A stretch of DNA of 64,000 nt from Bacteroidota bacterium. GTDB lineage: Bacteria > Bacteroidota > Bacteroidia > UBA8524. The stretch spans positions 1-64,000 of the forward strand of contig WGMZ01000026.1 in NCBI GenBank assembly GCA_016124735.1. The letters run 5' to 3'. The translations under genes were made by a program, and so were the position numbers. This document shows, in pieces, positions 9,879 to 52,765 of this stretch. A model generated the notes under the pieces. That model was not told the DNA's origin and did not search any database. It saw only the letters and a program-made list of their open reading frames with translations. The stretch's first letter is position 1, and each line of letters opens with the position of its first letter.

Positions 9879-10772
9879 TCAATAATTCTCCAGCCAGCCA
9901 AATTGATCGTGAAGAATGCGCGATTTGTGAAGTCTGAGGTATTCCAGATAGGCTTCACAAACCGGAGGTAGTTTTTTTCCTTTGAGCCAAATAAGTCGCC
10001 ATTTCGTAGTTATAGGCAAACCGGGCATAGTGTAAATAAACAGCTGTTTGCTGTCTATTTCATTGTGAATGCCTATCAAGGGGATGATGGAATTGCCCAG
10101 ACCAGCCATCACAGCCTGTTTTACCGCTTCATTAGAGGTGAGCTCCAACTTTCGTCGGGTGGCCTTCCCTGTTTTTTCGAGGTAGTCTTCCATGACTTTT
10201 CGGGTGGCGGAACCTTCTTCTCTGTATATCCAGGGTTGACTGTCTTTCAATTCCGGACTGTTTCCCACAAAAAACAGTTTGTTATCAATCAGTACTTCTT
10301 CTTCGACAGCCACCTTGTGGGGTAAAATGGAAACCAGAGCAAAATCAATCTCATTTTTCAAAAGACTTTCCATGACCCGGCTTTTGTTGGTTACGTCTAA
10401 AAGCAAATCAATTCCCGGATGCTGTCCCAAAAAATCGCCCAAAAAATAAGGGATGACATATTTCCCCGTGGAAGCTGAAGATATTTTAATGCGGCCACTC
10501 AGCAATCCTTTATAATCTCTTGTTTTGAATTTGATCTGCTCCAGTTCTTCGATGACGCGTTCGGCAACCCTACCGATTTCATAGCCAAAATCGGTAATCA
10601 TCAACTGCCGTCCCACCACTTCTGTCAGTGGAATACTGAATTGATCCTGAAATTTTTTTAGCTGAATAGACACGGCCGGTTGGGTCATGAAGAGTTCTTC
10701 AGCGGCCTTGGTAATGCTCTGTGTTTGCAGGACCTTCTGGAAGATTTGCAATTGATGAATCGTATAATCCAT
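9879..10772 (-). CDS. LysR-type regulator (CbbR/CysB-like) of the dab operon
   Basis: The 297-residue product has the LysR N-terminal helix-turn-helix (FQKVLQTQSITKAAEELFMT, QPAVSIQLKKF) and a periplasmic-binding-protein-like effector domain (GYVIPYF-like stretch at GKYVIPYFLGDFLGQHPGID, then EIDFALVSI). LysR regulators of CO2 fixation and inorganic-carbon uptake genes (CbbR, CcmR) have the same plan. It is transcribed divergently from the small-protein/dabB/dabA operon. A palindromic LysR-type site lies between them at 10778-10800, which fits autoregulation and activation of the operon. The effector cannot be read from the sequence. Confidence 0.88.
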   Translation of the reverse strand: MDYTIHQLQIFQKVLQTQSITKAAEELFMTQPAVSIQLKKFQDQFSIPLTEVVGRQLMITDFGYEIGRVAERVIEELEQIKFKTRDYKGLLSGRIKISSASTGKYVIPYFLGDFLGQHPGIDLLLDVTNKSRVMESLLKNEIDFALVSILPHKVAVEEEVLIDNKLFFVGNSPELKDSQPWIYREEGSATRKVMEDYLEKTGKATRRKLELTSNEAVKQAVMAGLGNSIIPLIGIHNEIDSKQLFIYTMPGLPITTKWRLIWLKGKKLPPVCEAYLEYLRLHKSRILHDQFGWLENY

Positions 10773-10777
10773 AAATA

Positions 10778-10800
10778 TTTATTATGAGTACAATAATAAA
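10778..10800. promoter_or_regulatory. LysR-type operator in the lysR-dab divergent promoter
   Basis: Perfect 8-bp arms TTTATTAT and ATAATAAA are separated by 7 bases. The inner part reads ATTAT-N7-ATAAT, which contains the T-N11-A pattern known for LysR-type regulators. It starts 6 bp upstream of the lysR ATG, so it probably overlaps that gene's promoter, and lies about 57 bp before the small gene that opens the dab operon. Confidence 0.6.
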
Positions 10801-10856
10801 TATAAATAAAAAATTATGAATGAGTCGGGAGACCTTTGTTCAAAAAACAATCCATC

Positions 10857-11171
10857 ATGACAAATACTACAAAAGCAAATCGCGCCTCAGAAAGACCGGA
10901 TGTTTTAGAACTCGATCTTATAAATGGTCAATACGACGCGGGAGACGGCTTTGAAATCGTTCACCAGCTTTTGCTTGAAAAAATCAATTTTCTTCAATTG
11001 AAAAACTTCAGTCTGGAAATTCGGTACGGGCAAAAAGATGAGCACACCAAGCTTCGTATCAAAGAATTGGAAGAAGCTGCACGTCAAACAATGGACTACT
11101 TTAAAAAATTTTCGGAAAAGGAGGATCGCTTCGATATAGAGGCCAAAATCATCATTTCTAAAAATTCGTGA
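10857..11171 (+). CDS. Small conserved-looking protein at the head of the dab operon
   Basis: The 104-residue product is cytoplasmic and has no membrane segment. Its centre (FEIVHQLLLEKINFLQLKNF followed by RYGQKDEHTKLRIKELEEA) reminds me of small Bacteroidota proteins that carry a 'KINFHxLKNFSxxxRFGxxD' motif, whose role I do not know. The frame is open to a TTG at 10836, but the ATG at 10857 is preferred. It lies 4 bp before dabB, so it is almost certainly co-transcribed with the bicarbonate transporter. A regulatory or assembly role for DabAB is inference. Confidence 0.7.
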   Translation: MTNTTKANRASERPDVLELDLINGQYDAGDGFEIVHQLLLEKINFLQLKNFSLEIRYGQKDEHTKLRIKELEEAARQTMDYFKKFSEKEDRFDIEAKIIISKNS

Positions 11172-11175
11172 GGGC

Positions 11176-12759
11176 ATGATAGCAGTTATCACACTACTTC
11201 CAGTCCTGGCATACCTGTCGGTCGCGCTTTTTTCCCGAATTCAGCCGGGAATGCGCCCCAAAGCACTACTTCTTAGTACCGCTTTTGCCTCATGGATTTC
11301 TCTGCTTGCTGCCCTCATTGCCTGTGTTTTTGTCAGCATGAAAGGCACCGTGAAAGCGGAAGTACTCCGTTTTCCACCCCTTTCTTTCAATCTCCGTCTG
11401 GATGCCATGAATGTGTTGTTGTTCATGATGGTATCCATCATCGGACTGGTTGTAATGAAATACAGTCGGAATTACATGGATGGAGATGCTCGGCAGGGTG
11501 CTTTCACCGGCAGAATGGCCACTACCCTCTCTTCTGCCTACCTGATCATTCTTTCCGGCAGTCTCACAGTACTTTTTATCTCCTGGGTATTGACAAGTAT
11601 CGGATTAAATCGCCTCTTGTTGTTCTATCCTCAGCGAATAGGTGCGGTGAATACTGCGAAGAAAAAATTCATCATGGCCCGCCTCAGTGATGCGTTCCTC
11701 CTGTTGGCCTCCATCGCCTTATTAAGGATGTTCGGAACCGATAATTTGGAGCGCATCTTTGTCCAGATAAACAGCATCGAACCGGGAAGCAATCTCCTGG
11801 CCTTAGCCACCTGGAGCTTGGTGCTGGCTGCATTATTCAAGTCGGCACAATTCCCGACTCATTCCTGGCTGGTGGAAGTAATGGAGACCCCTACTCCTGT
11901 TTCTGCACTGCTGCATGCAGGATTGTTGAATGCAGGGCCTTTTTTAATTATGCGAATGGCTTTCATTCTGGAAGCCAACCCGAAGATGCAGTCATTGCTG
12001 CTGATAGCCGGCGGTATTACCGCCCTCTTTGGCTCTCTGGTGTACACAACCCAAAGCTCCATTAAAACGGCGCTCAGCTATTCGAGTGCGGGACATATGG
12101 GATTCAGCTTGTTTATCTGCGGGTTGGGACTCTACCCCGCAGCCTTGGTGCACCTGATTGCCCATTCCTTCTATAAGGCCCATGCATTCCTAAGCTCCGG
12201 CAGTTTAATCGATCAATTGCGCATGCAGCAAACCACAAATACATTGAGAACAGGCAAATACCGGGTGATATTGGCAGCCACCTTGGTCAGTATCTTCATG
12301 TTCTATTGCCTGAGTCAATTATGGAGACCAGACATGCTCGAAGACAAAGGCATGATGATACTCAGTTCGATTATTGTGATGGGGGTAGCTTTCACACTTA
12401 TACAAGCCTGGGATTCCAATGGCGACCGCTCGTACAAGATCCGGGCATTTACCTATGCTTTGCTCGTGTTCTCGGCATTCATTATTTTGGAAAGCGGGAT
12501 GCATTTCCTTGTAGAGCAGCAAGTTCCTGCTTTGAGTCTTTCGGCCGAAGCTTTATGGATTGCAGGACTTTTTCTCATTGCCTTTTCAGGGATCATGCTC
12601 TTGCAAAGCTTGCCAGGTATTCAAAATACAAGGCTTTTTAAGAATAGTTTTGTCCATCTTAAGAACGGCCTGTACATCACAGTGCTACTGGACCGGATGC
12701 TTGGAACCTGGGCAAATAAAAACAGGACTAAATCTCCATTAACCGACCGAGAAAAATGA
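11176..12759 (+). CDS. dabB: DabB-like membrane subunit of the DAB inorganic-carbon transporter
   Basis: The 527-residue polytopic protein belongs to the proton-conducting NADH dehydrogenase/Mrp antiporter (PF00361) family. It resembles NuoL in the segment SAQFPTHSWLVEVMETPTPVSALLHAG, which carries the lysine- and histidine-rich proton path. The product is shorter than NuoL and lacks the long C-terminal lateral helix. It overlaps the dabA gene by 4 nt (ATGA) and no other complex I gene is near. In DAB systems (also called MpsAB), DabB couples the proton gradient to CO2 hydration by DabA, which traps bicarbonate in the cell. The partner gene makes the assignment firm. Confidence 0.9.
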   Translation: MIAVITLLPVLAYLSVALFSRIQPGMRPKALLLSTAFASWISLLAALIACVFVSMKGTVKAEVLRFPPLSFNLRLDAMNVLLFMMVSIIGLVVMKYSRNYMDGDARQGAFTGRMATTLSSAYLIILSGSLTVLFISWVLTSIGLNRLLLFYPQRIGAVNTAKKKFIMARLSDAFLLLASIALLRMFGTDNLERIFVQINSIEPGSNLLALATWSLVLAALFKSAQFPTHSWLVEVMETPTPVSALLHAGLLNAGPFLIMRMAFILEANPKMQSLLLIAGGITALFGSLVYTTQSSIKTALSYSSAGHMGFSLFICGLGLYPAALVHLIAHSFYKAHAFLSSGSLIDQLRMQQTTNTLRTGKYRVILAATLVSIFMFYCLSQLWRPDMLEDKGMMILSSIIVMGVAFTLIQAWDSNGDRSYKIRAFTYALLVFSAFIILESGMHFLVEQQVPALSLSAEALWIAGLFLIAFSGIMLLQSLPGIQNTRLFKNSFVHLKNGLYITVLLDRMLGTWANKNRTKSPLTDREK

Positions 12760-15218
12760 CATTGAGTAATTATCCTTCAACTACTGTCGATCAAATCATT
12801 CGCAAAGCTTGCGGGCAGATAGCGCCTTACTTTTCTCTGGAGAACTTTGTGGCCGTCAATCCTTATCAGTCATACGCAAGCAAAGATTTCAACCAAACCA
12901 GCCAGGAACTGGCAAAATATGCGGGCATGCAGAGTACTATGGATTCTGCATTCTATCTTCGGAAAATAGAACAGCAGGAAATAATTGCAGACGATTTGAT
13001 TCACGCACTTCAGGCAAAAAATATTTCTTTGTCTGTAGATGAATTCCTACACAAGACGCGCAGCGGAAAACAAGAGGCAAACTCACCCCGGATTTCGAGC
13101 TGGACACAATTTCTCTCAGAAAAATGCGGTGTGGACTACTGTAACCTGCTTCTGAAAAGCATCAGTCAATGGGCTGCCTCTTACTTCGACCGCAAACAGA
13201 GTGTCTGGAAAAACCCTTATCAGGATGAAGGCATCTACCGGGCTTGGAAAGCCGAATACGAGATTGATAGGTCCTTGGATCTTGCTGGCTTGAGTGGATT
13301 CAGGAAAGCAGTAGAGACACTACCATACCATCCGATGAATGCCATCAGGATTGGGCTCAAAATCCTGAAAATTCCCGAATCAGAGTTGATGCCTTATTGT
13401 ACACTGCTTCTCTATGAACTTGGAGGGTGGTCTGCATGGATTGCAGGCTTGGACTGGAACAATAAGCTGGAAGGAACAGAAGAAACGAGATTAAGCGAAT
13501 TCCTGGCCATTCTCATCAGCTGCGAGTCAATCTTATGTCAATTGCATTCTCATTCTGACTGGAAAGCATCCTGGGCAGCCGAAAGAATGCATATTTTGAA
13601 GCAACCCATTGATCAAAGCCTGGAATTCCGACTGATTCTGCACGATGCATACGAAAGGTCCTTCCGACGCAAACTCCGGAGACAATTCGAACCGAAGTCC
13701 GAACAGAATAATAAGAAAGCATCAGATAGAATCAGCGTGCAGGCGGTCTTTTGTATCGATGTGCGTTCTGAGCTTATACGCCGGAACCTGGAAAAGATGG
13801 ATCCGGGAATACAAACCATAGGATTTGCAGGGTTTTTTGGGATGCCGATTGGCTACAAACCTATTGGACAGGAAAACCCCATGAATCAATGTCCGGTATT
13901 GCTGCAACCAGCATATGAAATTACGGATTTACCGCGGCAGGACGATCAACCAGAAGCGAAAATGGTGGTGATGAAGAGACAATTTAAACAACTTCAGCAC
14001 CTCTTTAAATCGAGCGCCATCGCCTGTTTTGGCTTTGTTAGTCCACTCGGACTGAGCTTCCTCCCAAAACTTATCGGTCACAGCTTTGCTCGGACAAAAC
14101 CAGCTTCAAAGTCCTCCTCTACCGGAAATTCAGGAAATACAGACCGATCGTTTTCAGGTCCTGACACCAGCCAGATCCCATTGAATGAAAAAGTAGTCCT
14201 GGCTAAAAACGCCTTGATCGGAATGGGGATTGACAAGGAAATAGCACCGCTGGTTTTAATCGTTGGTCATGGTTCCAGCTCCATCAATAACCCGCATGCC
14301 AGTGGATTGGATTGCGGGGCATGTGGCGGACATTCCGGGGGCATCAATGCCCGGGTTGCCAGCGCAATTTTAAACACCAAAGAAGTCAGAAATGCCTTGT
14401 TACATGAAGGGATTTCCATTCCGGATGAGACCTTGTTTCTCGCTGCTCTTCACGATACCACCACCGACGAGGTGCAAATCCTGGAAAATCCGAAAATCTA
14501 TACAGGCAAGGCGAAAGAGTTGGAAGAACTCAAAACAAAACTTCGTCAAGCTTCTGAAATGAGCCGGAAAGAAAGAGCACGGCGCTTAAGCTTGCACTCC
14601 AATAAGGAGATCAATAAACAGATTCGGAAGCGCTCGAATGACTGGTCGGAGATTCGACCGGAATGGGGACTGGCAGGCTGCACGACCTTTGTGATTGCAG
14701 ACCGATCTAAAACAAAGCATCTGGATTTAGGAGGCAAAAGTTTTCTACACTCCTATTCCTGGAAGAAAGACCCAGATTATTCACTGCTTGAGCAGATCAT
14801 GACGGCCCCCATGGTGGTTACCAGCTGGATTAACCTGCAGTACTTTGCTTCCATGGTAGAACCTGACCGCTTCGGGGCTGGGAATAAGACACTGCATAAT
14901 GTTACTGCCGGAATCGGTGTTTTTGAAGGGCGGTCCGGCGACTTAAAAACCGGTCTCCCCTTTCAATCGGTACACGATGGAGAAGATTGGCAGCACGACC
15001 CCATCAAACTGCATGTGCTATTGGATGCTCCGGAAGAAGCCATTAACTCCGTCCTTGAAAAGCATCCAAACCTCAAAAATCTGGCAGACAACAAATGGAT
15101 TCATCTTCTGCATCTGGATAAAGAAGGAAAAACGGACCTATATTATTCTGGTAATTTAAACTGGAGTCCGCTCGCAGCAGGAGAAACAGTTGACATTTTA
15201 GAAGAAGTTGAACTTTAA
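12756..15218 (+). CDS. dabA: DabA-like (DUF2309) zinc subunit of the DAB inorganic-carbon transporter
   Basis: The 820-residue product is a DUF2309/UPF0753 protein. DabA is a distant beta-carbonic anhydrase that hydrates CO2 vectorially together with DabB. The zinc-site residues known from characterised DabA are all here: C333 and D335 in VFCIDVRSE, H505 in IVGHGSSS, and C520 in GLDCGACGG. The 15-residue spacing between the His and the last Cys equals that of the reference protein (H524, C539). The N-terminus (YFSLENFVAVNPYQSY) and C-terminus (GVFEGRSGDLKTGLPFQSVHDG) are typical. No membrane helix is present, so it is a peripheral cytoplasmic subunit. It is translationally coupled to dabB. 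Confidence 0.93.
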   Translation: MTLSNYPSTTVDQIIRKACGQIAPYFSLENFVAVNPYQSYASKDFNQTSQELAKYAGMQSTMDSAFYLRKIEQQEIIADDLIHALQAKNISLSVDEFLHKTRSGKQEANSPRISSWTQFLSEKCGVDYCNLLLKSISQWAASYFDRKQSVWKNPYQDEGIYRAWKAEYEIDRSLDLAGLSGFRKAVETLPYHPMNAIRIGLKILKIPESELMPYCTLLLYELGGWSAWIAGLDWNNKLEGTEETRLSEFLAILISCESILCQLHSHSDWKASWAAERMHILKQPIDQSLEFRLILHDAYERSFRRKLRRQFEPKSEQNNKKASDRISVQAVFCIDVRSELIRRNLEKMDPGIQTIGFAGFFGMPIGYKPIGQENPMNQCPVLLQPAYEITDLPRQDDQPEAKMVVMKRQFKQLQHLFKSSAIACFGFVSPLGLSFLPKLIGHSFARTKPASKSSSTGNSGNTDRSFSGPDTSQIPLNEKVVLAKNALIGMGIDKEIAPLVLIVGHGSSSINNPHASGLDCGACGGHSGGINARVASAILNTKEVRNALLHEGISIPDETLFLAALHDTTTDEVQILENPKIYTGKAKELEELKTKLRQASEMSRKERARRLSLHSNKEINKQIRKRSNDWSEIRPEWGLAGCTTFVIADRSKTKHLDLGGKSFLHSYSWKKDPDYSLLEQIMTAPMVVTSWINLQYFASMVEPDRFGAGNKTLHNVTAGIGVFEGRSGDLKTGLPFQSVHDGEDWQHDPIKLHVLLDAPEEAINSVLEKHPNLKNLADNKWIHLLHLDKEGKTDLYYSGNLNWSPLAAGETVDILEEVEL

Positions 15219-15375: not shown

Positions 15376-16497
15376 ATGATTTTTCGTTTGCTATTGGGTT
15401 CCATCTCCATCCATTTTTTATTAATAGTTGCGAGCTGCCAACCTTCGGGTAAAGCAGATGAAGCGATGCAAAGCCTGACAGATAGTCTGTATGCCGCGCA
15501 ACCAGCAATGCATGGACTTCTTCTATCCGTTTCCAATCATGACTCTACCCTTGTTTTTAATGCCGGCTGGGCCGATTCTACTGATTTGGTCCCGCTAGAG
15601 AAAAACACTCCGGTTCTGTTGGCCAGCATTACCAAAATGTATATGGCGGCGGCGACTTTAAGGCTTTGCGAAAAGTATCATCTACCGCTGGACACTTGCA
15701 TTGAATTCCTCCTGATGCCCGAAACGGATTCCCTGCTGAGAGCAGACGGATATGCGACCAATCGCATCACCTTAGGCCATTTGTTGAACAATACCAGCGG
15801 TATCTCAGATTATACGGAAACGAGAAAATACCAGGAAGTGACCCTCCAGCATCCCGAGCATATCTGGAGCAGGCGAGAGCAAGTTTATCTTGCCGTAAGC
15901 GAGTCGAAACCAATGGCTGATCCCGGCATCATGTTTCATTATTCAGACCTTAATTTTCTCCTTTTGGGCGAGTTGATGGAACATTTTACTCAAAAACCTT
16001 TTTACCAGTCCGTTCGCGAGCTATTGCAATTTGAAAACCATGGACTTCGACATACCTGGTGGAACGAGCTGGAAGAAGCCCCCGATGAGCTCCCCCCATT
16101 GGCAAAGCAATACGCCCGTTCTTTCGCTGTAGATTCCTGGAAATTGCATCCCAGCTTTGATCTTTTTGGTGGTGGAGGTATTGCCGCAACTGCCCGAGAC
16201 CTCGCTCGCTTTACTGAAATGCTATTTCAGGGAGCGTTTTTTTCTAAGCCCGAAACCTTGTCATTGTTGACAAAAATAGCTTCCCCTCTACCGGCGGGAT
16301 ATAAAGGGTACCGTTTGGGTGTAATGTCATGGGAAAAGAACGGAAAACAGGCCTTCGGACACGGAGGTTTTTGGGGAGCGATGGCAATATATTATCCTGA
16401 AAATAAGCAAGCTATATGCGTCATTCCCTTAGAAAGAGACTATTGGTCCTGGGCGCAGGATATTGCGTGGAAAATCCACGCCGAAGAAATTTATTAG
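15376..16497 (+). CDS. Serine beta-lactamase-like hydrolase lipoprotein
   Basis: The 373-residue protein belongs to the class C beta-lactamase/DD-peptidase-like family (PF00144). It has a lipobox ending in C21 (LLIVASC), so it is probably a membrane-anchored lipoprotein. Catalytic motifs are visible: S84-I-T-K87 (SxxK), Y189-S-D-L-N (YxN-like), and GHGGF in place of KTG near residue 335. Such proteins in Bacteroidota act on cell-wall peptides, esters or D-amino-acid peptides; the substrate cannot be predicted. It stands 157 bp after dabA on the same strand, and a link to carbon uptake is unlikely. Confidence 0.85.
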   Translation: MIFRLLLGSISIHFLLIVASCQPSGKADEAMQSLTDSLYAAQPAMHGLLLSVSNHDSTLVFNAGWADSTDLVPLEKNTPVLLASITKMYMAAATLRLCEKYHLPLDTCIEFLLMPETDSLLRADGYATNRITLGHLLNNTSGISDYTETRKYQEVTLQHPEHIWSRREQVYLAVSESKPMADPGIMFHYSDLNFLLLGELMEHFTQKPFYQSVRELLQFENHGLRHTWWNELEEAPDELPPLAKQYARSFAVDSWKLHPSFDLFGGGGIAATARDLARFTEMLFQGAFFSKPETLSLLTKIASPLPAGYKGYRLGVMSWEKNGKQAFGHGGFWGAMAIYYPENKQAICVIPLERDYWSWAQDIAWKIHAEEIY

Positions 16498-16557: not shown

Positions 16558-17163
16558 TTGAACTGGGATCACCACTTTGATCGCATGGCAGAACAGGGTT
16601 TTGTTGCGATCGACTCCTTTTTACCTCCCGACCTCTATGCGCAAATGCATCAGCGTATAAAAGAACTATTACTTCACGACGAACTTGAACAGGCCGGTAT
16701 TGGCAGTCAGCAGGATTATATCATTCGGGAAGCCATTCGGGGAGATTCTATTTCCTGGCTAGATGAGAGTCACCCCTCAGAATCTCTTTATTTAGAAGAG
16801 ATGATGCAGATGATGGAGCGCCTGAACAGAGGCTTTATGCTAAGCCTCAGCGGCATGGAATTTCATTTTGCAGCATATCCCAAAGATTCGTATTACAAAA
16901 AACACCTGGATCAATTCAAGGAACGCAACAACCGACTCATCTCACTCATCGTTTATCTCAACGATAACTGGACCCCGGACGATGCCGGCGAATTGCGCAT
17001 CTATCTGAAAGATGGCGTCCAGGACATTGCTCCCATTGGGAATCGCGCGGTCCTTTTCCGTAGTGACACCCTCGAACATGAAGTGCTACCCACCAAACGC
17101 ATTCGTAAAAGTATCACCGGCTGGTTTCTGTACCGTCCGCCGGGTTTGGTGATTTTAGGCTAA
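16558..17163 (+). CDS. 2OG-Fe(II) oxygenase (SM-20/prolyl-4-hydroxylase-like)
   Basis: The 201-residue product has the 2-oxoglutarate/Fe(II) oxygenase facial triad: H116-x-D118 (YKKHLDQF) and H174 (LEHEVLP). R183-K-S185 is the probable 2-oxoglutarate anchor. The N-terminal part (MAEQGFVAIDSFLPPDLYAQ) is typical of the PF13640 group, whose members hydroxylate prolines or other protein side chains. The start is uncertain: a TTG at 16558 gives the usual N-terminal helix, while the first ATG is at 16585. It is followed by a convergent gene with about 20 bp between stops. Confidence 0.82.
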   Translation: MNWDHHFDRMAEQGFVAIDSFLPPDLYAQMHQRIKELLLHDELEQAGIGSQQDYIIREAIRGDSISWLDESHPSESLYLEEMMQMMERLNRGFMLSLSGMEFHFAAYPKDSYYKKHLDQFKERNNRLISLIVYLNDNWTPDDAGELRIYLKDGVQDIAPIGNRAVLFRSDTLEHEVLPTKRIRKSITGWFLYRPPGLVILG

Positions 17164-43618: not shown

Positions 43619-44596
43619 ATGAACAGTATTGCACTTGTAGTTATTCTGGTTGGTGCCATTATCTTTTTGTTCACCTTCCTATACTTTGTCCCATTGGGAC
43701 TTTGGTTCTCGGCCCAGTTATCGCGTGTGCGCATCAACTTACTCCAGTTGGTATTCATGCGCTTTCGAAAGGTCCCGCCTCAGGTCATTGTCAAAGCAAT
43801 GATCAATTCAACCAAGGCAGGGTTGCGATTAACCCGTGATGAGTTAGAAGCGCATTACCTCGCCGGTGGAAATGTAATCAATGTTGTAAATGCATTAATC
43901 TCGGCCGACAAAGCCAATATCCCTCTGGATTTCAAATCTGCTACAGCCATCGACCTGGCTGGCCGCGATGTGTTCCAAGCGGTGCAGATGAGTGTAAACC
44001 CAAAAGTAATTGATACCCCTCCTGTTACTGCGGTGGCGAAGGATGGAATCCAACTCATTGCGAAGGCAAGAGTAACCGTACGCGCCAATATCAAGCGTTT
44101 GGTGGGTGGCGCCGGTGAAGAAACAATCCTCGCTCGGGTGGGCGAAGGGGTCGTTTCCTCTATTGGTTCGGCCGAATCTCATAAAACGGTATTGGAAAAT
44201 CCTGACTCAATTTCCAAAACAGTTCTTGCCAAAGGACTGGACTCGGGAACAGCTTTTGAAATTCTTTCAATCGATATTGCCGACGTGGATATAGGCAAGA
44301 ACATTGGCGCGGTATTGCAAACGGATCAGGCCATGGCCGATAAAAATATTGCTCAGGCAAAAGCAGAAGAGCGCCGGGCTATGGCAGTCGCTTTGGAGCA
44401 GGAAATGGTCGCCAAGGCACAAGAGGCCCGGGCCAAAGTAATTGAAGCCGAAGCAGAGATCCCGATGGCCATTGCAGAGGCATTCCGCTCAGGAAACCTC
44501 GGCGTCATGGATTATTACAAACTCAGAAATATTCAGGCAGATACGGATATGCGCGACAGCATTTCCAAACCGCCAAAAGACAGCGGAAAGAAATAA
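43619..44596 (+). CDS. floA: Flotillin-like protein FloA
   Basis: The 325-residue protein has the FloA/YqfA plan: an N-terminal membrane hairpin ([27 protein letters not shown]), an SPFH-like domain ([21 protein letters not shown], then [13 protein letters not shown]), and a long Ala/Glu-rich coiled coil ([19 protein letters not shown]). A short hydrophilic tail finishes the protein. FloA forms membrane microdomains and scaffolds oligomeric complexes. Preceded by nfeD, and followed by a strong terminator. Confidence 0.95.
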
Positions 44597-44600
44597 AAAA

Positions 44601-44629
44601 AGGCCGGTAAATTACCGGCCTTTTTTTTT
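44601..44629. terminator. Bidirectional terminator between floA and msrA
   Basis: A stem of ten base pairs (AGGCCGGTAA / TTACCGGCCT) has a very tight centre; the effective loop is AAATT. It is flanked by A- and T-runs. It separates the convergent floA and msrA operons and includes the end of the msrA frame. Confidence 0.85.
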
Positions 44630-45305
44630 ATTTGACTCCTGGCTTCAGCTTATCTCCAAAAATTTTTTTCATCTTTTCCACCTTTGGTTTGATGACCATT
44701 TGGCAATATGGCTGTTGCCCATTGTTAGTGTAATATTCCTGATGGTAGTCCTCTGCCGGGTAAAAAGCTTCCAGCGGACTAATTTCCGTTACAACGGGAG
44801 ACGGAAATGCCGATTCCTCGTTTAATTTCTTTTTGTAGTACTCTGCTCTTTCTTTTTGATAGGTATTGTGATAAAAAATCACAGATCGGTATTGCGTTCC
44901 AACATCCGCTCCCTGACGATTCAGGGTGGTTGGATCATGGGTTTGCCAAAATACTTCGAGCAATTCATCATAACTGATAACTGCCGGCTTGTAGATGATT
45001 TGTACCACCTCTGCATGTCCCGTTAATCCACTGCAAACTTCCCGGTAGGTTGGATTCGCAATCTTCCCTCCGGAATAACCGGATTGAACAGATTCCACCC
45101 CTTTTAAATCCTGAAAGACAGCTTCCACACACCAGAAGCATCCGGCACCAAAGGTGGCGGTATCTACTTCATTGCTATCTTTAATTTCCTTCATATTGCC
45201 TTCCGATTGAAAATCTATTTTATTGGTCTGTTTTGTCGGATTCCCTTGGCATGCTAAGAGAAAGCCAAGGCTCATCATCCCCGTCGTGAATATGCTCATT
45301 TTCAT
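44628..45305 (-). CDS. msrA: Peptide methionine (S)-S-oxide reductase MsrA, lipoprotein form
   Basis: MsrA reduces oxidised methionine in proteins. The 225-residue product has a lipobox (GFLLAC, Cys19) after a short signal, so it acts in the envelope. The catalytic region GAGCFWCVEAVF lies near residue 55, and the family elements GHAEVVQIIYKP and YRSVIFYHN follow. The gene starts inside the upstream polytopic-membrane-protein gene: the two share 86 nt in different frames. The lipoprotein signal lies in that overlap, which supports the long start. Its position at the end of an exporter operon suggests repair of exported or envelope proteins. Confidence 0.93.
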   Translation of the reverse strand: MKMSIFTTGMMSLGFLLACQGNPTKQTNKIDFQSEGNMKEIKDSNEVDTATFGAGCFWCVEAVFQDLKGVESVQSGYSGGKIANPTYREVCSGLTGHAEVVQIIYKPAVISYDELLEVFWQTHDPTTLNRQGADVGTQYRSVIFYHNTYQKERAEYYKKKLNEESAFPSPVVTEISPLEAFYPAEDYHQEYYTNNGQQPYCQMVIKPKVEKMKKIFGDKLKPGVK

Positions 45306-46686
45306 TTTTCTTTAGTCTGTAATTCTCTAATTGCAAAAACAGCCAAAGGAACGCCATCAAAGGAATCAACCATATTACCCGCGCCTCATACCGATCCAAC
45401 GGGTTGGAAAAAACTCCACAAATGGCTGCATTGCACACGATAAATAAGAACAATGCAAATCCCAATCTGTTTTGATCATCTAGACGGGCTAAAGCAGGTT
45501 TCCTGACAAAAAAAGCGAACATAATTACAAACAGACCAGCAATCACAGCAATCATTTGCCGGATGCTGGCTCCATGAAAATAGAGGTCCTGTGTATATTG
45601 TTTCGATGATTTGTAACGCGCTAAATCCAGGGGCCAGGCCTCTTTCAGCACTTCATAGGGGGCACTTCCCTCCTTCTGAGAACTGATCATCCCCACTCCA
45701 AAATTAATACTTTGCTGCCAGGTGCTGCCCCACGCATATCCCAGCCACTTCCTGAATACAGCTCTATCCTTCCACCATCCGGAGGCCATCGCTTTGAGCT
45801 CTTCATTTCTTTGTTTCCAGCAAAATCCCCAGCCTCCCACGGCATTGCAGGAAGAATCAATCAATATATCTGAATTCCAAAGAATATCATTGCCCGACAT
45901 CTCAGCCAACCTGGATCGTTCCGTACACAGAAACAATGGTGCGTTTCCTTCTCCGCAATGGCGCTCCAACCAAGGAACCAAAACGCCGGCCGTTTGCAAA
46001 CTCGCGGTGAGAAAAACCCGGGAAGAATCCGAATAATAGAAACGTCCGCTCAGCCGGTAATTATTCAATGGCAGTGTAAAAACCGACAAGAGAACACCCA
46101 AGATCAATGAATTCCAGCTCCACTTATTCCGTTTGTCTGACTGAAACATAAATGCAATTGCCACAGCGAACAATCCGAGGAGCAGATGTGTAGTATGGGT
46201 AGCTGTAATCAATGCAAATACAATCCAAAATACCAGACGATGAAGTCCCAACTTGGCCTTTGGCTTGAACAAAGTCCACGCTATCAGGAACAACAAAGGC
46301 GTAAGCAGATCGGGCATAATTTGATTGACAAGAAAGGGTAAACCGCTTGTTCCTGCTAAAAGAAGAGCAATCAAAGCACTGGTTCCCGGAATGAACTTTC
46401 CTTTAAATCCCCGATGAACAAAGATGTACATAACGTACAATACCAGGAGCGATTGAAACAATGGAATGGCGTATACACTCGAAAAATTCGCTATCCGGCT
46501 CACTAATTCGGAATACATCACCGGACGGTCAATTGGGATTTGATGTTGACGAAAAGCGATCAGGTAGGTTCCACTGTCAGAATAAAGAAATGGGAAACGG
46601 TAAATCCACATCGGCCAACAAAGAATTGGCAACACCAGCACATTGGAAATCAAGTCAATAATTATTTCCTTTCGCCTCGTGTTCAT
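45220..46686 (-). CDS. Polytopic membrane protein, GT-C-like
   Basis: The 488-residue protein has about ten membrane helices, with one large extracytoplasmic part around residues 215-370. The first outer loop contains FLYSDSGTYLIAF, whose acidic residue is placed as in GT-C glycosyltransferases. Beyond this I do not recognise a family. The gene overlaps the TolC gene by 4 nt and the msrA gene by 86 nt, so it belongs to the exporter operon. A role in modifying the exported substrate or the cell surface is inference. The hydrophilic tail beyond the last helix falls in the overlap with msrA. Confidence 0.6.
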   Translation of the reverse strand: MNTRRKEIIIDLISNVLVLPILCWPMWIYRFPFLYSDSGTYLIAFRQHQIPIDRPVMYSELVSRIANFSSVYAIPLFQSLLVLYVMYIFVHRGFKGKFIPGTSALIALLLAGTSGLPFLVNQIMPDLLTPLLFLIAWTLFKPKAKLGLHRLVFWIVFALITATHTTHLLLGLFAVAIAFMFQSDKRNKWSWNSLILGVLLSVFTLPLNNYRLSGRFYYSDSSRVFLTASLQTAGVLVPWLERHCGEGNAPLFLCTERSRLAEMSGNDILWNSDILIDSSCNAVGGWGFCWKQRNEELKAMASGWWKDRAVFRKWLGYAWGSTWQQSINFGVGMISSQKEGSAPYEVLKEAWPLDLARYKSSKQYTQDLYFHGASIRQMIAVIAGLFVIMFAFFVRKPALARLDDQNRLGFALFLFIVCNAAICGVFSNPLDRYEARVIWLIPLMAFLWLFLQLENYRLKKNENEHIHDGDDEPWLSLSMPRESDKTDQ

Positions 46687-48089
46687 TCCAGAATAAGTTT
46701 TTCTAAAAGGTCACCTCGGGTATGAAACAAACGAATTAAAGCCATTCGCCATTTGATCTCCAGACTCACGCGTTTTGCCTGCGATTGAAAGCACATGTTT
46801 TCTCGCTGATTCAGTAAGAAAACAGAGCTTTCCCCACTCCGAAAACGAATAATTTCTGCATCCAATAATTTCTGATAACTGGATTGGATACCTTCCTGAA
46901 TGCGCGCATTTTCCAGCCCTAACACATATTCCTGAAAGTTGGCATTGATCTTTTGGGCAATTTGTCTTTGTTTATCTGCAATTTCCCAATTCACCTCTTG
47001 TTGTTTTAATCGGGTATATTGTACAGCCGCTCTTTCCTGCCGCATAAATATTGGAAAAGAAATTCCGATGCCTGCTTTGTAATAGTCTGTGCCAATGGTC
47101 TGCAATGCCTGAAAGTCCTGAGAGGCATCATACAACAAGTTGTATTTAAATTCCGCTTTAGGTAGCAGCTGGTTTTGCCTGAATCGAAGTTCTTTACTCA
47201 GAATCTCCGTTTGATTATAAAATTGCATGAGCAATGGATTTTCGGCCATCCAGTCTGAATTTACCGCCGCAGAATCCACCAAATTGGTAATTTCCTCGAG
47301 CTGATCCAATAAGGGGGGAACTCCTTGGCCCTGTTCCAGCAAATGTTTCCAATACTCCTGCCAGATAAAAGTAAGCAGGTGTTGGGTGTGTTTTCTGTAA
47401 TTCAGCAAGGCGTCATTAGTAGCCAATAGACGACTTTGCCATTGCATATGAGACTCCACTGTATCGATGAGTGGTCGGTCGCCCAGCATGGCAGCTGACC
47501 TGGTCGTTTGAAATTGTTCCTCGCTTATCTGACTTGCGTTTCGATTGATAATCCAAATATTGTATGTTTCCACCCATGTCCAGTAGGCTTCCATACCTTC
47601 GTGGAGCAAGTCGTTCAATTCCGTTTTTTGTTCATAGGGAGCTGTTTTTTGAAGGATGAAGGCTTTGTTTCTTTCAAATCGCATTTTGCTTTGCCAAAGT
47701 CCGTTGCCCAAAGGAACTTTCAAACCACCCGCATATAGCCCATTCATCGGAACGGAATTTTCCGGATTCATGTACTGACCTGAATTATGATCAAAGCGAC
47801 TGTATATTTCAATTCCATATAGCGTTGGAATACTCAGTCCGCCTCCAAGTAAATTCCAATAATTCTTTCCGTCAAAAGTTTTTCGGTCGTAATTTAAATT
47901 AAAACCCGGTTCTGTCAGCCCTTTGGCTTTCAACCAGCTGGCTTGCGCAAATGCCGGTCGCAGGGAAGCCTGAAAAGCTCGCGGATGGTATTCTACCAAT
48001 TGTTTGGCAAACGTCTTCGGTTGGAGAATGGTCTCCGCAGCAGTATATGTAAAGGACAAAAATCCACTTAATACCCAGGCCAATTTCAT
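46683..48089 (-). CDS. TolC-family outer-membrane efflux protein
   Basis: The 468-residue product is of the TolC/outer-membrane-factor family. It has an N-terminal signal (MKLAWVLSGFLSFTYTAAE) and long helical hairpins (NQTEILSKELRFRQNQLLPKAEFKYNLLYD-like second repeat, around residues 290-320). The C-terminal repeat includes QRENMCFQSQAKRVSLEIKW. It would form the outer duct of a tripartite exporter. It overlaps the HlyD gene by 4 nt and the membrane-protein gene by 4 nt. No individual feature suggests loss of function. Confidence 0.85.
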   Translation of the reverse strand: MKLAWVLSGFLSFTYTAAETILQPKTFAKQLVEYHPRAFQASLRPAFAQASWLKAKGLTEPGFNLNYDRKTFDGKNYWNLLGGGLSIPTLYGIEIYSRFDHNSGQYMNPENSVPMNGLYAGGLKVPLGNGLWQSKMRFERNKAFILQKTAPYEQKTELNDLLHEGMEAYWTWVETYNIWIINRNASQISEEQFQTTRSAAMLGDRPLIDTVESHMQWQSRLLATNDALLNYRKHTQHLLTFIWQEYWKHLLEQGQGVPPLLDQLEEITNLVDSAAVNSDWMAENPLLMQFYNQTEILSKELRFRQNQLLPKAEFKYNLLYDASQDFQALQTIGTDYYKAGIGISFPIFMRQERAAVQYTRLKQQEVNWEIADKQRQIAQKINANFQEYVLGLENARIQEGIQSSYQKLLDAEIIRFRSGESSVFLLNQRENMCFQSQAKRVSLEIKWRMALIRLFHTRGDLLEKLILE

Positions 48090-49438
48090 TTTATATTTCC
48101 TTTTTCTGAATCCTCTATTCGATAAAATTCGGGCGGGAACCCGTTCAGTCTGCGCCAGAGTTCATACCACACGGGCACATCTTTCAATAATGCATATCCT
48201 TTGGCTCCGCCTCCAATTGCCAGCAATTCGGGCCATTTTTCTGTATTTTCAGATGGAGAAACTAAAATGCGGTAGCGTCCATTTGGACTGATATTATTGT
48301 CAATCACTTTTACTGTTCCTCCAAATGTCCCGAAAGATGTCCCTGGCCAGCCACTGAATACAACCGAAGGCCAACCATCAAATTGAATTCGAACAGAACG
48401 TCCGATTTCGAACAAGGGTAAATCAACGGCTTGAATATAAAAGGCGACAGCCATATCATGCACTTCAGGAGTTATACTTGCCAATGCCTCCCCGGCTTTA
48501 ACGTTTTCACCAAGTCCTGCCCGATGAATCCTCACAATTTGTCCATCTTGTGGGGCAAGAATAAAGTAGTTTCCAGCCCGGATTACATAGTTAGAATAGG
48601 CATTATTGAGTTTGGATAGTTCCTCATTTACTTTGGATAAGTCGGATACTGCGGTTTGTATTTCCGACTGTATCTTAAAGATTTTTTCCAGGTACTCCGC
48701 CTCTATTGTATTCAGTTCTACTTCAGAAATAAGAAATTCATTTTGAGAAATAGCAAAATCATTTTCGGCCTTATTGAGTTTGGCCATGGCGCTTTGCATT
48801 TTATTCTGGCGCGATTCTAATTCAGTTTTAGAAATAAGGTTCTGTTTGTATAATTCCCCACCCCTTTCGTATTGTGCTTTGAAGTTGGAATAATCCGTGC
48901 GCGCTGCCTCAATCGCCGCACTGTCTGTACTTAATTTGTAGTGAATTTGCTCTATTTTTCTGCGGGTTTGCTGCGTTTTCAACTTCAGGTTCTGACGCAG
49001 CGCAGCTATCTGGCGTTCCAGCGCATCAATTTTATTCTGGTAAGCCTTGGTTGAATTGTGTTTGGCTTGCAATTGTTCTTCTGTACGTTCCAGTAGAAAT
49101 GGATCCCAGTACTGATCTTTAATTTCCGAAATCCGCGCAATAGTATCCCCTTTTTGAACAAGCATTCCTTCCCTTACATACCAGTGATCTATTTTTCCTT
49201 CTATCACCGACTGAATTTCCTGAGGACGTGTTTCAGGTTCAAGCGTAGTCAGATTCCCCTGCATAAATACATTCTGTGTCCAGGGCATAAATAACAGAAC
49301 AATACCCAGCCCCAAAAAGAAAAATAATACTCGACTGAAACGGCGTATTGTTCCGAGTCGCATGACTTTGTTTCGAGATAAATCCGAACCCGGAACGAAA
49401 TAGTCGTTATTTAGCTTTTGAGATGACAGATTAAGCAC
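48086..49438 (-). CDS. HlyD-family membrane-fusion (adaptor) protein
   Basis: The 450-residue protein has one membrane helix near residues 35-55 (RVLFFFLGLGIVLLFMPW), a lipoyl-like half (SVIEGKIDHWYVREGMLVQKGDTIARI), and a long alpha-helical hairpin between about residues 120 and 290. The second lipoyl half is FILAPQDGQIVRIHRAGLGENVKAGEAL, and a beta-barrel domain follows. It links an inner-membrane exporter to TolC. Start is GTG at 49438, overlapping the end of the ABC-like gene by 8 nt. The intact adaptor argues that the operon is in use. Confidence 0.9.
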   Translation of the reverse strand: MLNLSSQKLNNDYFVPGSDLSRNKVMRLGTIRRFSRVLFFFLGLGIVLLFMPWTQNVFMQGNLTTLEPETRPQEIQSVIEGKIDHWYVREGMLVQKGDTIARISEIKDQYWDPFLLERTEEQLQAKHNSTKAYQNKIDALERQIAALRQNLKLKTQQTRRKIEQIHYKLSTDSAAIEAARTDYSNFKAQYERGGELYKQNLISKTELESRQNKMQSAMAKLNKAENDFAISQNEFLISEVELNTIEAEYLEKIFKIQSEIQTAVSDLSKVNEELSKLNNAYSNYVIRAGNYFILAPQDGQIVRIHRAGLGENVKAGEALASITPEVHDMAVAFYIQAVDLPLFEIGRSVRIQFDGWPSVVFSGWPGTSFGTFGGTVKVIDNNISPNGRYRILVSPSENTEKWPELLAIGGGAKGYALLKDVPVWYELWRRLNGFPPEFYRIEDSEKGNIK

Positions 49439-51107
49439 TCTGTCCTCCTTTCTCTTGAATTAATGAGGCCAAAGGAGTGCGTTCTCCCTTAAAATGATCA
49501 GGGATGTTTTCACTGATTACCCAAAAATATTTGCCAGTAACTTCAAACAAAGCATTTAAATCAGTTTTGGATAACAGTGCGTTGGGCCAAAGGTTCAAAT
49601 CAATTAATACGACCTCAGCTTCACTCATGCAGGTGCGAAGAATCCCAAGCTGCCAAAGAATGGTCGTGTCATTGAAAATCCATAATGGCTCAATGGTTTC
49701 CCGAAAAGTCAGGCCAAAATCATTTAATCGCGCCGATAAGCCAATGATATCTGCAATTTTCATGGCCTTCCTTAGCGCTTCCGGCTCACCTTCAATTCCT
49801 AAATAGCTGCTAATCGACTCATTCATGACAACCTTTGCTGGCTCAATCACCATAAATTTCTGCCGCCATATTGAGAGATTCCATTCACTCAACGCCAAAC
49901 CATCAGCGCGCACCGTACCCTCCGCGGGATCAATATGACCACCCAGTAATTTCTTGAAGGCAAGAATTTGAAGCGCACTGCCTCCAAGCCATAAATGGTT
50001 CACCTTAAGCGAAAAGCTGCCATTAGGAACTATAAAATTTCTTCCCATTTTAAAACAAAGCCCCTGAAAGGCCAATTCTTCTATGGGTTCAGAACGCGTA
50101 TACCCCTTTGGTAAGTCTATCGTGAGTTCAGGGATTTTTGCCACTTTTTCAACTGCTGTCAATACATCATATATACCTTCCATACTCAGAAGCAATTTTT
50201 CAACAGATCCCATGATTAAGATGATTACAATCTCTGCCGCAATAAACTGTCCCAGGTTAATTTGTCCCGACAACACCAGATTTGCGCCAATGATTAACAA
50301 AATACTGATGATCAATGTTTTGAAAAATATTAAAACCTGGTATTGTGTACGAAGTACTCTAAAATGTTTTTTACGTGCATGCAGGTAGGCGCTTAAAAAG
50401 TCATCTACCTGTTTTAATCCTTTTTGGAATGGTTGTGCTGCCTTGTACCAGAAATGCTCCAACCCGAGCCGTTGCAAGTGAAATGCAATCCGGTATTTCT
50501 CCTCCGATTCTATCATACTGGAACTCAATCCTCTCGGACCGGAAAAACGAAAAAACAAAAAGAGAATAATAAAAATCAGCAAAGAAAAGAAGCCGAAAAA
50601 TGGATGATAAAATGAGATCAGAATTAATCCAAATACCATTTGAAGAATGGCGGCCGATAAATCCATCAATAATTTGGGAACCTGCTTTTGAATAGTCAGC
50701 GTGTCAAAGAAACGGTTAGCCAGCTCCTGATACAGATATTTTCCTGTAAGATTAAGTTTTAATAGCGGTAAGCGGAAGGCATACTCAAAACTGGATCGGA
50801 GAAAAATCTTCTGTTGAAGAACTTCTACAATACTCAGCTGAATTAATTGCATTACACCGACAAAGAAAGTTCCCGTTATTACCAGGGCAATCAAAAGAAC
50901 CAATGATGTCGAGAAGTAAGCCCCCATCAAATAAGTGATAATTGCCTGAACGCCCAATGGAAGTGTCAGACTTATAATTCCACTGATAATAGCATACATA
51001 TAAAGAAGCCAAATGTCTTTGTAATCTTCCCGGAGGACTGCAAACATTTTTCTGGAACTACTAACTATAAGATTTTTAGATGAATTCGGCTTCGAAGGTT
51101 CTTTCAT
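49431..51107 (-). CDS. ABC-exporter-like protein with a degenerate ATPase domain
   Basis: The 558-residue protein has a six-helix ABC exporter domain (about residues 20-310) and a C-terminal domain that aligns in length and order with an ATPase. Its motifs are gone. Walker A is LGGSALQIL (near 374-382), with no GK(S/T). The Q-loop position reads MVIEPAK. The LSGGQ region has become WIFNDTTILWQLG. Walker B (VVLIDLNLW) keeps Asp but lacks the catalytic Glu. The H-loop reads WVISENI. The frame is intact and the hydrophobic core pattern is kept, so it is a pseudo-ATPase rather than a broken gene. It heads the HlyD-TolC operon. The start is the ATG at 51107; the frame extends to a TTG at 51128. 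Confidence 0.85.
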   Translation of the reverse strand: MKEPSKPNSSKNLIVSSSRKMFAVLREDYKDIWLLYMYAIISGIISLTLPLGVQAIITYLMGAYFSTSLVLLIALVITGTFFVGVMQLIQLSIVEVLQQKIFLRSSFEYAFRLPLLKLNLTGKYLYQELANRFFDTLTIQKQVPKLLMDLSAAILQMVFGLILISFYHPFFGFFSLLIFIILFLFFRFSGPRGLSSSMIESEEKYRIAFHLQRLGLEHFWYKAAQPFQKGLKQVDDFLSAYLHARKKHFRVLRTQYQVLIFFKTLIISILLIIGANLVLSGQINLGQFIAAEIVIILIMGSVEKLLLSMEGIYDVLTAVEKVAKIPELTIDLPKGYTRSEPIEELAFQGLCFKMGRNFIVPNGSFSLKVNHLWLGGSALQILAFKKLLGGHIDPAEGTVRADGLALSEWNLSIWRQKFMVIEPAKVVMNESISSYLGIEGEPEALRKAMKIADIIGLSARLNDFGLTFRETIEPLWIFNDTTILWQLGILRTCMSEAEVVLIDLNLWPNALLSKTDLNALFEVTGKYFWVISENIPDHFKGERTPLASLIQEKGGQSA

Positions 51108-51232
51108 AGGTTCAAAATCAACACGCAAAACACAAAACCAAGACCAAAATTGTCTGATAAACCGAGAATCCTGGTAATTTTATCGATGCATTCGAAAATA
51201 CATCGTTTTTAATTCTTCTATATATTGCAAGC

Positions 51233-51901
51233 ATGGATTTAGGCCCAATACTGATTTTTATTCCAATCGCATTTTCCACCTTGTTCCCTGTAGTAAACCC
51301 AATTGGGACCGGAATTTTATTTTTGAACCTAACCACCGAAGCATCCAGTCCACTAAGAAGACAAATAGCAAGGAAAATTGCTGCCAATTCGCTGGTGGTC
51401 ATGCTTTTTGTCCTGATGATAGGACTTTATGTACTCGAGCTATTCGGTTTGAGTATCCCGGTTGTTCAGTTATGCGGCGGCTTAATCCTATTTTTTATGG
51501 GGTGGCAGTCACTTCACTCCAGCGATGGGACGAACGACGCAAGCAAGAAAGACTATGTGAGGGAAGATGTAAAATCGGTTTACGAAAACCAGGCCTTTTA
51601 CCCCTTCACTTTTCCTTTAACAATAGGCCCCGGGACCATTGCTGCGGGACTCACACTCAGCGCAGAAGCATCAAAAACAGCCGGAATTATTAAATGGGAG
51701 AATTATTTAGGGATAACCATTGCTATGCTGCTGGTAGCCATTGTCATTTACATCTCCTACGGCTACTCCGATTTAATAGTTCATCGTTTGTCACCTAGTT
51801 TGCGGAAAGTAATCATGCGTTTGCTGAACTTTATTCTTCTATGTATTGGTGGACAAATCACTGTCAATGGAATACATGCGATTATTCAGTCATTTCAGTA
51901 A
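51233..51901 (+). CDS. MarC-family integral membrane protein
   Basis: The 222-residue protein fits the MarC/UPF0056 family of six-helix inner-membrane proteins. It starts IPIAFSTLFPVVNPIGTGILFL, the family's hallmark, and a second repeat contains FPLTIGPGTIAAGLTL. Relatives were once linked to antibiotic resistance, but the transport role is not settled. The 3' end overlaps the convergent MazG-like gene by 20 nt. The TTG/ATG-rich upstream region between it and the ABC-like gene (about 125 bp) holds both divergent promoters. Confidence 0.88.
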   Translation: MDLGPILIFIPIAFSTLFPVVNPIGTGILFLNLTTEASSPLRRQIARKIAANSLVVMLFVLMIGLYVLELFGLSIPVVQLCGGLILFFMGWQSLHSSDGTNDASKKDYVREDVKSVYENQAFYPFTFPLTIGPGTIAAGLTLSAEASKTAGIIKWENYLGITIAMLLVAIVIYISYGYSDLIVHRLSPSLRKVIMRLLNFILLCIGGQITVNGIHAIIQSFQ

Positions 51902-52379
51902 GAAAGACCTGTAAAACACCTTTTAAGTCAGCTGGAGAGTATGCAACAGACTTCAAGGTCTTTTCATCTGCCTTCCTGTAAACTAGGTATTTACCGTCTA
52001 TTTCCTTGAAATAAGCCGACTGCCCCATATTTTCAAAATGTTCCACTGTTTTTAGAGCCTCCTCATGCGAATCACAAGCCTTACTCATATTCGAACGCTG
52101 AACTTCGTTAAATAACGCTTCAAAAGCATGCTGTAAGCCAAATTCGAGCACTGCGCCGCTTAGAACATATTGAAGGTCGCATAAGGCATCTGCAATGGCT
52201 ACCAGGTCATTTTCCGCAATGGCTTCTTTTAATTCATTTAATTCCTCCTGAAGAAGCTCTACGCGCAAGTCGCAGCGCTTTCCTGAAGGTATTTGGGGCT
52301 GATCCAGGATTGGATGGCCGAATGTGGAATGGAATTCACCAACCATTTTCAGGCTGTTTGGCATGTTGATTTCTTTCAT
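51882..52379 (-). CDS. MazG-like nucleoside triphosphate pyrophosphohydrolase
   Basis: The 165-residue product belongs to the all-alpha NTP pyrophosphohydrolase (MazG/PRA-PH/dUTPase) superfamily. The metal-binding pattern is EEL..LKEAI followed by DALCDLQYVLSG (E-x2-E and D-x3-D type), near residues 45-75. Such enzymes hydrolyse (d)NTPs, cleaning the pool or limiting phage growth. A C-terminal extension (KEIDGKYLVYRKADEKTLKS) is also found in phage-type members. It overlaps the XRE gene by 4 nt, so the pair is one operon under the triple operator upstream. Confidence 0.85.
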   Translation of the reverse strand: MKEINMPNSLKMVGEFHSTFGHPILDQPQIPSGKRCDLRVELLQEELNELKEAIAENDLVAIADALCDLQYVLSGAVLEFGLQHAFEALFNEVQRSNMSKACDSHEEALKTVEHFENMGQSAYFKEIDGKYLVYRKADEKTLKSVAYSPADLKGVLQVFLTEMTE

Positions 52380-52708
52380 ATCTTTCGTTTTTCACGCATT
52401 TCAAGCTCTAATTCGCGGAGCTCAAGTTGTATTTCCTTTAATTTTTGTTCGGTTTTATGGAGAAACAACTCCAATTCTTGTGAATTATTAGATCGTTTGA
52501 GCCTTTCTCCCTGACCATTTAATAGCCATTCCGGCGCTATTTCTGGAAATTTGATAAGAAGTTTTTGGATGAGATCTATACCAGGCTTATTCCTGCCACT
52601 GCTAATATGACTAAGCTGTGCCTGAGATACATCCAGGGTATTTGCCAATTCACTTTTACTCAATCCGGAGGCATCCATCACAAGCTTAACTCTCTCTCCA
52701 ATACTCAT
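52376..52708 (-). CDS. XRE-family regulator with C-terminal coiled coil
   Basis: The 110-residue protein has an XRE helix-turn-helix (ELANTLDVSQAQLSHISSGR, residues 20-39), a family-typical segment after it (FPEIAPEWLLNGQGER), and a long charged coiled coil (LKEIQLELRELELEMREKR) at the C-terminus. The segment WLLNGQG is common in Bacteroidota XRE proteins. Three near-identical dyads lie directly upstream, so it probably represses its own operon with the MazG-like gene. Confidence 0.88.
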   Translation of the reverse strand: MSIGERVKLVMDASGLSKSELANTLDVSQAQLSHISSGRNKPGIDLIQKLLIKFPEIAPEWLLNGQGERLKRSNNSQELELFLHKTEQKLKEIQLELRELELEMREKRKI

Positions 52709-52765
52709 ATTACAAGTGTAAAGTTGTTTTACAATTGTAAAGAGAGTTCACTTTACGTTTGTAAA
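52709..52765. promoter_or_regulatory. Triple operator upstream of the XRE/MazG operon
   Basis: Three related palindromes of the form TTTAC-N4-GTAAA lie in 57 bp. Site 1 (52709-52722) is an imperfect copy, with TTACAAGTGTAA as its dyad. Site 2 (52728-52741) is the perfect TTTACAATTGTAAA. Site 3 (52752-52765) is TTTACGTTTGTAAA. Centres are 19 and 24 bp apart. The first site touches the XRE start codon. The spacing of about two helical turns is compatible with cooperative binding of XRE dimers on one face of the DNA. Confidence 0.8.

Follow-up and report, generated by a model that had tools for sequence, protein, structure and literature searches.

The window analysed here is a 64,000-nucleotide stretch of DNA from a Bacteroidota bacterium (assembly GCA_016124735.1, contig WGMZ01000026.1, positions 1 to 64,000), and it carries a DabA–DabB pump operon that opens with a small open reading frame (ORF) and faces a divergent LysR-type regulator across a conserved operator block. 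We put at roughly 0.8 the probability that this locus specifies a regulated DAB/DAC-type bicarbonate pump, controlled by an NdhR/CmpR-like LysR protein and its operator, in which an acidic residue of the ion path has been relocated between subunits and the small protein is a member of the regulon. The direct observations behind this reading are gene identity, active-site and channel residues, a shared operator, a shared regulator clade, genomic co-occurrence, and a reciprocal residue swap between DabA and DabB.

The identification of the pump, made in the original prediction from the bare sequence, is well supported. The dabA gene (12756-15218, plus strand, as are all stranded features below unless stated otherwise) encodes an 820-residue, beta-carbonic anhydrase (CA)-like zinc subunit that matches PF10070 with 814.3 bits against a curated cut-off of 25 (E=1.5e-244) and aligns with 9rd0_A at E=4e-166. 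The adjoining dabB (11176-12759, 527 aa) encodes the NuoL-like proton-conducting subunit, with PF00361/PF00662 (Proton_antipo_M/N) domains, a PF00361 match of 154.4 bits, and an alignment with 9rd0_B at E=3e-62. The reference, PDB 9rd0, is the DAB2 complex (DabA2-DabB2) of Halothiobacillus neapolitanus. The small ORF (10857-11171, ATG at 10857), which encodes a 104-residue protein of an uncharacterised family with no family match, ends 4 bp before dabB, and dabB and dabA overlap by ATGA. The LysR gene (9879-10772, minus strand, 297 aa), with HTH_1 (PF00126) and LysR_substrate (PF03466) domains, forms a divergent pair with this operon across an 84-bp region. These reading frames all lie where they were originally described. 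By sequence resemblance, the order LysR, small gene, dabB, dabA is kept in relative G004, and the divergent arrangement is kept in G004, G275, Fulvivirga kasyanovii, and several Algoriphagus.

Alignment to DAB2 confirms that DabA keeps C333, D335, H505, and C520, the four residues originally singled out. Together with R337, they correspond to C351, D353, H524, C539, and R355 of DabA2, and they complete the Cys-His-Cys zinc site (C333, H505, and C520) and the Asp-Arg dyad (D335 and R337). Their codons lie at 13752-13766 for the CIDVR stretch, 14268-14270 for H505, and 14313-14315 for C520. The zinc ligands, the Asp, and the Arg are invariant across 96 DabA sequences. The remaining tested active-site and tunnel residues of DabA are the same as in DAB2, apart from one conservative change (Val696 to Leu). 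Likewise, all 10 tested proton-route and ion-pair residues of DabB are identical, namely S256, H260, K310, S316, H339, H343, K347, K235, D185, and R182, and the position equivalent to Ile151 of DAB2 is occupied by Val. From this residue pattern we infer transport activity and ion coupling of the DAB/DAC type, that is, a vectorial CO2-hydrating, bicarbonate-accumulating pump. Protons, or perhaps Na+, would flow through DabB along the membrane gradient and so power the one-way hydration of CO2 at the zinc site buried in DabA.

The finger tip of DabA departs from DAB2, a point absent from the original prediction, as are the second DAB of the genome and the extension of the operator past the dyad. 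Glu444 of DabA2 is replaced by Ser429 (codon 14040-14042) in an ungapped alignment (FVSPLGLS versus FVESAGLS), and both Glu444Ala and Glu444Gln abolish activity in DAB2 (PMC13144422). A proteobacterial DAB2 subtype was rejected for this pump on the same residue. Among the 96 DabA sequences, 47 have Glu here, 30 have Ser, and 9 have Gly, and the rest have Gln, Asn, or Pro. The expectation that the pump should be active, drawn from the four conserved residues, is therefore incomplete: those residues are kept, but an essential proton-path Glu is absent and is apparently compensated in DabB.

The apparent compensation was found in 64 paired DabA-DabB loci, counted at the position of DabB residue 439 of the window (codon 12490-12492). 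Where DabA has Ser (27 loci) or Gly (6 loci) at the Glu444 site, DabB has Glu at 439 in 33 of 33. Where DabA retains Glu444, DabB has Gln (17), His (12), or Asp (2), so that Gln or His accounts for 29 of 31. The predicted model of DabB has 15 transmembrane (TM) helices (predicted local distance difference test, pLDDT, 82; predicted template-modelling score, pTM, 0.84), and residue 439 lies past the midpoint of helix 14 (418-446), in the part that by NuoL topology we take to be the periplasmic side. In the DAB2 paper, the DabA finger is placed against TM11-14 of DabB (PMC13144422). Covariation and the predicted model together suggest that the half-channel acid has moved from the DabA finger to Glu439 in DabB helix 14. 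Spatial contact between Glu439 and the finger would be expected on this account, and we regard the swap as a good hypothesis rather than proof. In the Bacteroidota and Chloroflexota type of pump, the periplasmic half-channel acid would accordingly be Glu439 in TM14 of DabB and not the residue on the DabA finger. Six Chloroflexota loci (L112, L125, L126, L143, L156, and L157) have Gly at the Glu444 site of DabA and Glu at the 439 site of DabB, and three of them (L125, L126, and L143) have SbtA-like genes downstream. Five aligned type II DABs of Bacteroidota, including the second DAB of this genome, have no finger acid and carry a GED motif (GID in one) in the NuoL-like stretch of DabB, which is consistent with the view that the half-channel always contains one acid, wherever it sits.

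The same residues bear on two other accounts of the complex. It could be a Na+/HCO3- symporter rather than a proton-driven CO2-hydrating enzyme, as co-transport of Na+ and bicarbonate has been proposed for the homologous MpsAB pair of a heterotroph (PMC6689103), and loss of the finger Glu could accompany a changed coupling ion. We consider this unlikely, given that the zinc, Asp, and Arg residues for CO2 hydration are all present, that DAB2 is active without Na+ dependence (PMC13144422), and that DabB offers a replacement acid. It is very improbable that the pump is uncoupled or inactive for want of the Glu, as the DAB2 mutants would imply for a DabA with Ser429: throughout the Bacteroidota clade, Ser429 occurs alongside an intact operon and the full set of catalytic and channel residues, which is unexpected for a decaying gene.

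Regulation of the operon by the LysR protein, also part of the original prediction, is well supported by the shared regulator clade and by the conserved operator. The closest solved LysR is 5y2v, at a modest similarity (166 bits, E=1.5e-47), and its record is titled Rubisco operon transcriptional regulator; we take it to be NdhR/CcmR. CmpR (5z49) is also close (E=1.6e-23), on par with 8sbf. With NdhR and CmpR among its closest solved relatives, the regulator is NdhR/CcmR-CmpR-like. An assignment as CbbR was rejected, as the match to NCBIfam NF045990 reached 163.7 bits against a curated cut-off of 450. In the LysR tree, 61 Bacteroidota module regulators (the window and 60 others) form one clade, and 19 Dab-linked LysRs, including that of the window, form one starred subclade. 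The genome holds no second LysR of the same kind, the next match being 24% identical.

The dyad noticed between LysR and the operon is confirmed as a perfect 10-bp inverted repeat with a 7-nt spacer (10776-10802). A reading of this dyad as the entire operator is not supported, because relatives retain a longer position-locked block and mostly lack the perfect repeat. This operator is conserved over about 40 bp, encloses the dyad, and continues as a conserved block to about 10838 (10773-10838, anchored on the LysR start codon). Its consensus reads AAATATT.TTTATG.TTT.CATTA.AAATATAAATAAAAATTTATGAAT, followed about 15 bases on by TTTG (10835-10838), which presumably resembles the Bacteroidota -7 element. 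The block is common to 56 of 62 homologous loci irrespective of the downstream gene; the other six were inspected and set aside. The operator core (10782-10819) scores 35.2 bits on a weight matrix built without the window site, and the same matrix found no other site of at least 8 bits in the 64 kb or in the loci read from the same genome. A 31-bp operator pattern has a single match genome-wide when up to three mismatches are allowed, with no match for the reversed control; a wider regulon through the same operator in this genome was rejected at that threshold. Scans for sigma-70-type promoters and terminators, which are unsuited to Bacteroidota, gave results near chance level.

We infer that the conserved block is a putative operator bound by the LysR protein, which would control the dab operon from between the divergent genes, probably in response to a carbon-status metabolite. 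The original prediction had named CO2 or redox state as the probable signal. Because the regulator is homologous to NdhR/CmpR, 2-oxoglutarate, NADP(H), or another carbon-status metabolite appears at least as likely. CcmR and CmpR control inorganic carbon uptake in cyanobacteria, and the co-repressors of CcmR are alpha-ketoglutarate and NADP+ (PMC3401165). A broader version of this idea, to which we give somewhat less than even odds, is that the LysR module senses carbon/nitrogen or tricarboxylic acid (TCA) cycle status through 2-oxoglutarate, citrate, or NADPH, with inorganic carbon uptake as one of several outputs and CO2 not the signal. The CcmR co-repressors speak for it, as does the frequency of NADP-isocitrate dehydrogenase, which lies near the small gene in 34 of 51 genomes, more often than any other metabolic gene; against it, the operator in this genome stands only before the dab operon. 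This sensing model is compatible with the regulated bicarbonate pump that we favour and differs from it on the signal.

The small gene leads from the pump to a wider module. The window protein has no match in Pfam, NCBIfam, or PDB, and assignment to a known family was rejected, as single relatives gave only scattered chance Pfam matches. Its AlphaFold2 model is a strand-helix-helix-strand domain (pLDDT 86) without a fold match at E<=0.001 in PDB or BFVD. Identity as PII or SbtB was rejected for lack of a PII Pfam family and of a PDB fold match at that threshold. A nine-member profile finds the gene in 51 of 295 genomes of the class, where the neighbours include a same-clade LysR in 44, NADP-isocitrate dehydrogenase in the 34 mentioned, SbtA in 22, and DabA/DabB in 6. 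It lies within 5 kb of SbtA in 22 of the 34 genomes with both and within 5 kb of DabA in 6 of 19, far closer to either than random placement would give, and nine of the 51 genomes have neither SbtA nor DAB. In a DabA scan of named Bacteroidota, the small gene directly precedes dabB at 9 of 24 loci and a diverged homologue follows dabA at 5 of 24; none of 56 dab loci from other phyla has it. The wider Bacteroidota module comprises LysR, NADP-isocitrate dehydrogenase, one or more small proteins, DUF6671, and SbtA, with dabBA taking the usual place of SbtA. The small gene thus belongs, on this gene-neighbourhood evidence, not just with the pump but with a bicarbonate-related module under LysR control. 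Its co-occurrence with dabBA, whose absence from relatives would have counted as refuting the original prediction, holds in G004, Fulvivirga, and Algoriphagus; more broadly, the gene tracks the LysR, isocitrate dehydrogenase, and SbtA module, and dabBA only sometimes.

Its place as first gene of the operon, 4 bp before dabB, which is also kept in Fulvivirga and Algoriphagus, might suggest that the small gene encodes a third pump subunit comparable to the small protein in three-gene DAB1. We find this quite improbable. In DAB1 the small protein is reported to be transmembrane (PMC13144422), unlike the domain modelled here; relatives stand beside SbtA or isocitrate dehydrogenase; and some LysR-dabBA loci lack a recognisable small gene. 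Because nine genomes carry the gene without either transporter, it is not simply a pump subunit, and the role of a fixed subunit was rejected as the principal interpretation. The small protein would instead belong to the regulon and serve several bicarbonate-related operons in an accessory or regulatory capacity. More tentatively, and with low probability, the 104-aa family could be a new bicarbonate-status effector of Bacteroidota that together with LysR couples isocitrate dehydrogenase, SbtA, and DAB, a heterotrophic counterpart to cyanobacterial SbtB/PII and CcmR, with the pump using the relocated Glu439.

Further genes recur in the module. DUF6671 (PF20376) is found at L044:11563-12402, L051:7528-8379, and L064:6353-7189, and a literature search found no paper on it. 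Sua5 threonylcarbamoyl-AMP synthase, a bicarbonate-using enzyme, recurs near the small gene (L064:5375-6346, L046:10134-11096, and L060:7017-7976). Two copies of the small protein, one more divergent, share a block beside isocitrate dehydrogenase at L051, L053, L057, L061, L063, and L035. In G052, a bacteriorhodopsin-like gene (L072:8744-9487; PF01036, 148 bits) lies beside a LysR-Band7-small-DUF6671-SbtA block, which suggests that bicarbonate import at that locus is connected with gradients driven by light; sbtA reportedly shows a bias towards Flavobacteriia with rhodopsin (PMC5932025).

The genome, which is 98.6% complete, gave no match to the RuBisCO large subunit. RuBisCO-based autotrophy was rejected on that ground, the large subunit being the one marker of CO2 fixation searched for. 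Since no large subunit was detected, the bicarbonate produced would feed heterotrophic carboxylations, and regulated supply for these reactions is the simplest and most likely role, as has been argued for MpsAB in heterotrophs (PMC6689103, PMC8552792). DAB homologues in Bacteroidetes were already reported in the MpsAB survey (PMC6689103), and our literature search found no paper on DUF2309 with Bacteroidetes. The rest of the genome encodes a second DAB, SbtA, SulP, and two beta-CAs. A second inorganic carbon cluster (contig C1, about 44000-55000; L027, L089) contains SulP, a beta-CA, type II dabA-dabB, and a phosphoglycerate-mutase-like gene, followed by the second beta-CA on the other strand and then SbtA. 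Downstream of dabA in the window lie a beta-lactamase-fold gene (15376-16497) and then a 2OG-Fe oxygenase-like gene (16558-17163); G004 also has beta-lactamase-like and 2OG-Fe oxygenase-like genes after dabA, with other genes between.

Several points weigh against our interpretation. The Glu444 that is essential in DAB2 is absent. Its loss amounts to only two apparent changes on the DabA tree (Bacteroidota and Chloroflexota), of which strong branches force one, and a sign test for the swap is without power at so few changes. The groups also differ at many further DabB positions. The missing small gene at some LysR-dabBA loci counts here as well, and with beta-CAs, a second DAB, and SbtA already in the genome, the pump may be redundant.

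Overall, the original prediction is right in kind and incomplete, as the small gene and LysR are part of a wider Bacteroidota module and the pump is a variant form whose half-channel acid has apparently been relocated. In dozens of genomes, genes for SbtA, DAB, or isocitrate dehydrogenase are preceded by one LysR clade and one conserved operator, which suggests that bicarbonate supply is a regulated process in heterotrophic Bacteroidota, and an uncharacterised small-protein family gains a testable context. Moreover, two lineages without an essential residue, both with a reciprocal acid in the other subunit, allow the DAB2 proton-path model to be tested directly: if it is right, a double swap should interconvert both pump types.

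Comparing the locus with known systems, it shares with DAB2 the PF00361 and PF10070 pair, the zinc ligands, the Asp-Arg dyad, all tested tunnel residues but one, and the cytoplasmic half-channel of DabB. However, Glu444 of DAB2 is Ser429 here and His450 of its DabB is Glu439, and the locus has a Bacteroidota-specific LysR and operator, a small ORF in front, and no RuBisCO detected in the genome. Type II DABs of Bacteroidota (C1:46567 in this genome; L029 and L037-L043) also combine PF10070 and PF00361 and keep the zinc site, whereas they place dabA before dabB, have a DabB of about 625 aa in the aligned ones, often occur with SulP and in some cases with CA, lack the finger acid, carry the GED motif in a NuoL-like stretch of DabB, and have no linked LysR of the same kind in the loci read. 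MpsAB of Staphylococcus, compared here at family level, is likewise a PF00361/PF10070 pair in a heterotroph that supplies bicarbonate without RuBisCO (PMC6689103, PMC8552792), but it belongs to another phylum, and MpsAB and CA rarely occur together in Firmicutes, whereas the present pump accompanies CA and SbtA. SbtB, the PII-like partner of SbtA, resembles the small protein in being encoded beside a bicarbonate transporter, while the 104-aa family differs in its strand-helix-helix-strand model, in having no PII match, and in occurring also without such a transporter. The phylum Bacteroidota is mostly heterotrophic. Finally, NdhR/CcmR and CmpR of cyanobacteria, which control inorganic carbon uptake genes including sbtA, are among the closest solved relatives of the LysR protein, although the similarity is modest and the Bacteroidota regulator stands before dabBA, SbtA, or isocitrate dehydrogenase.

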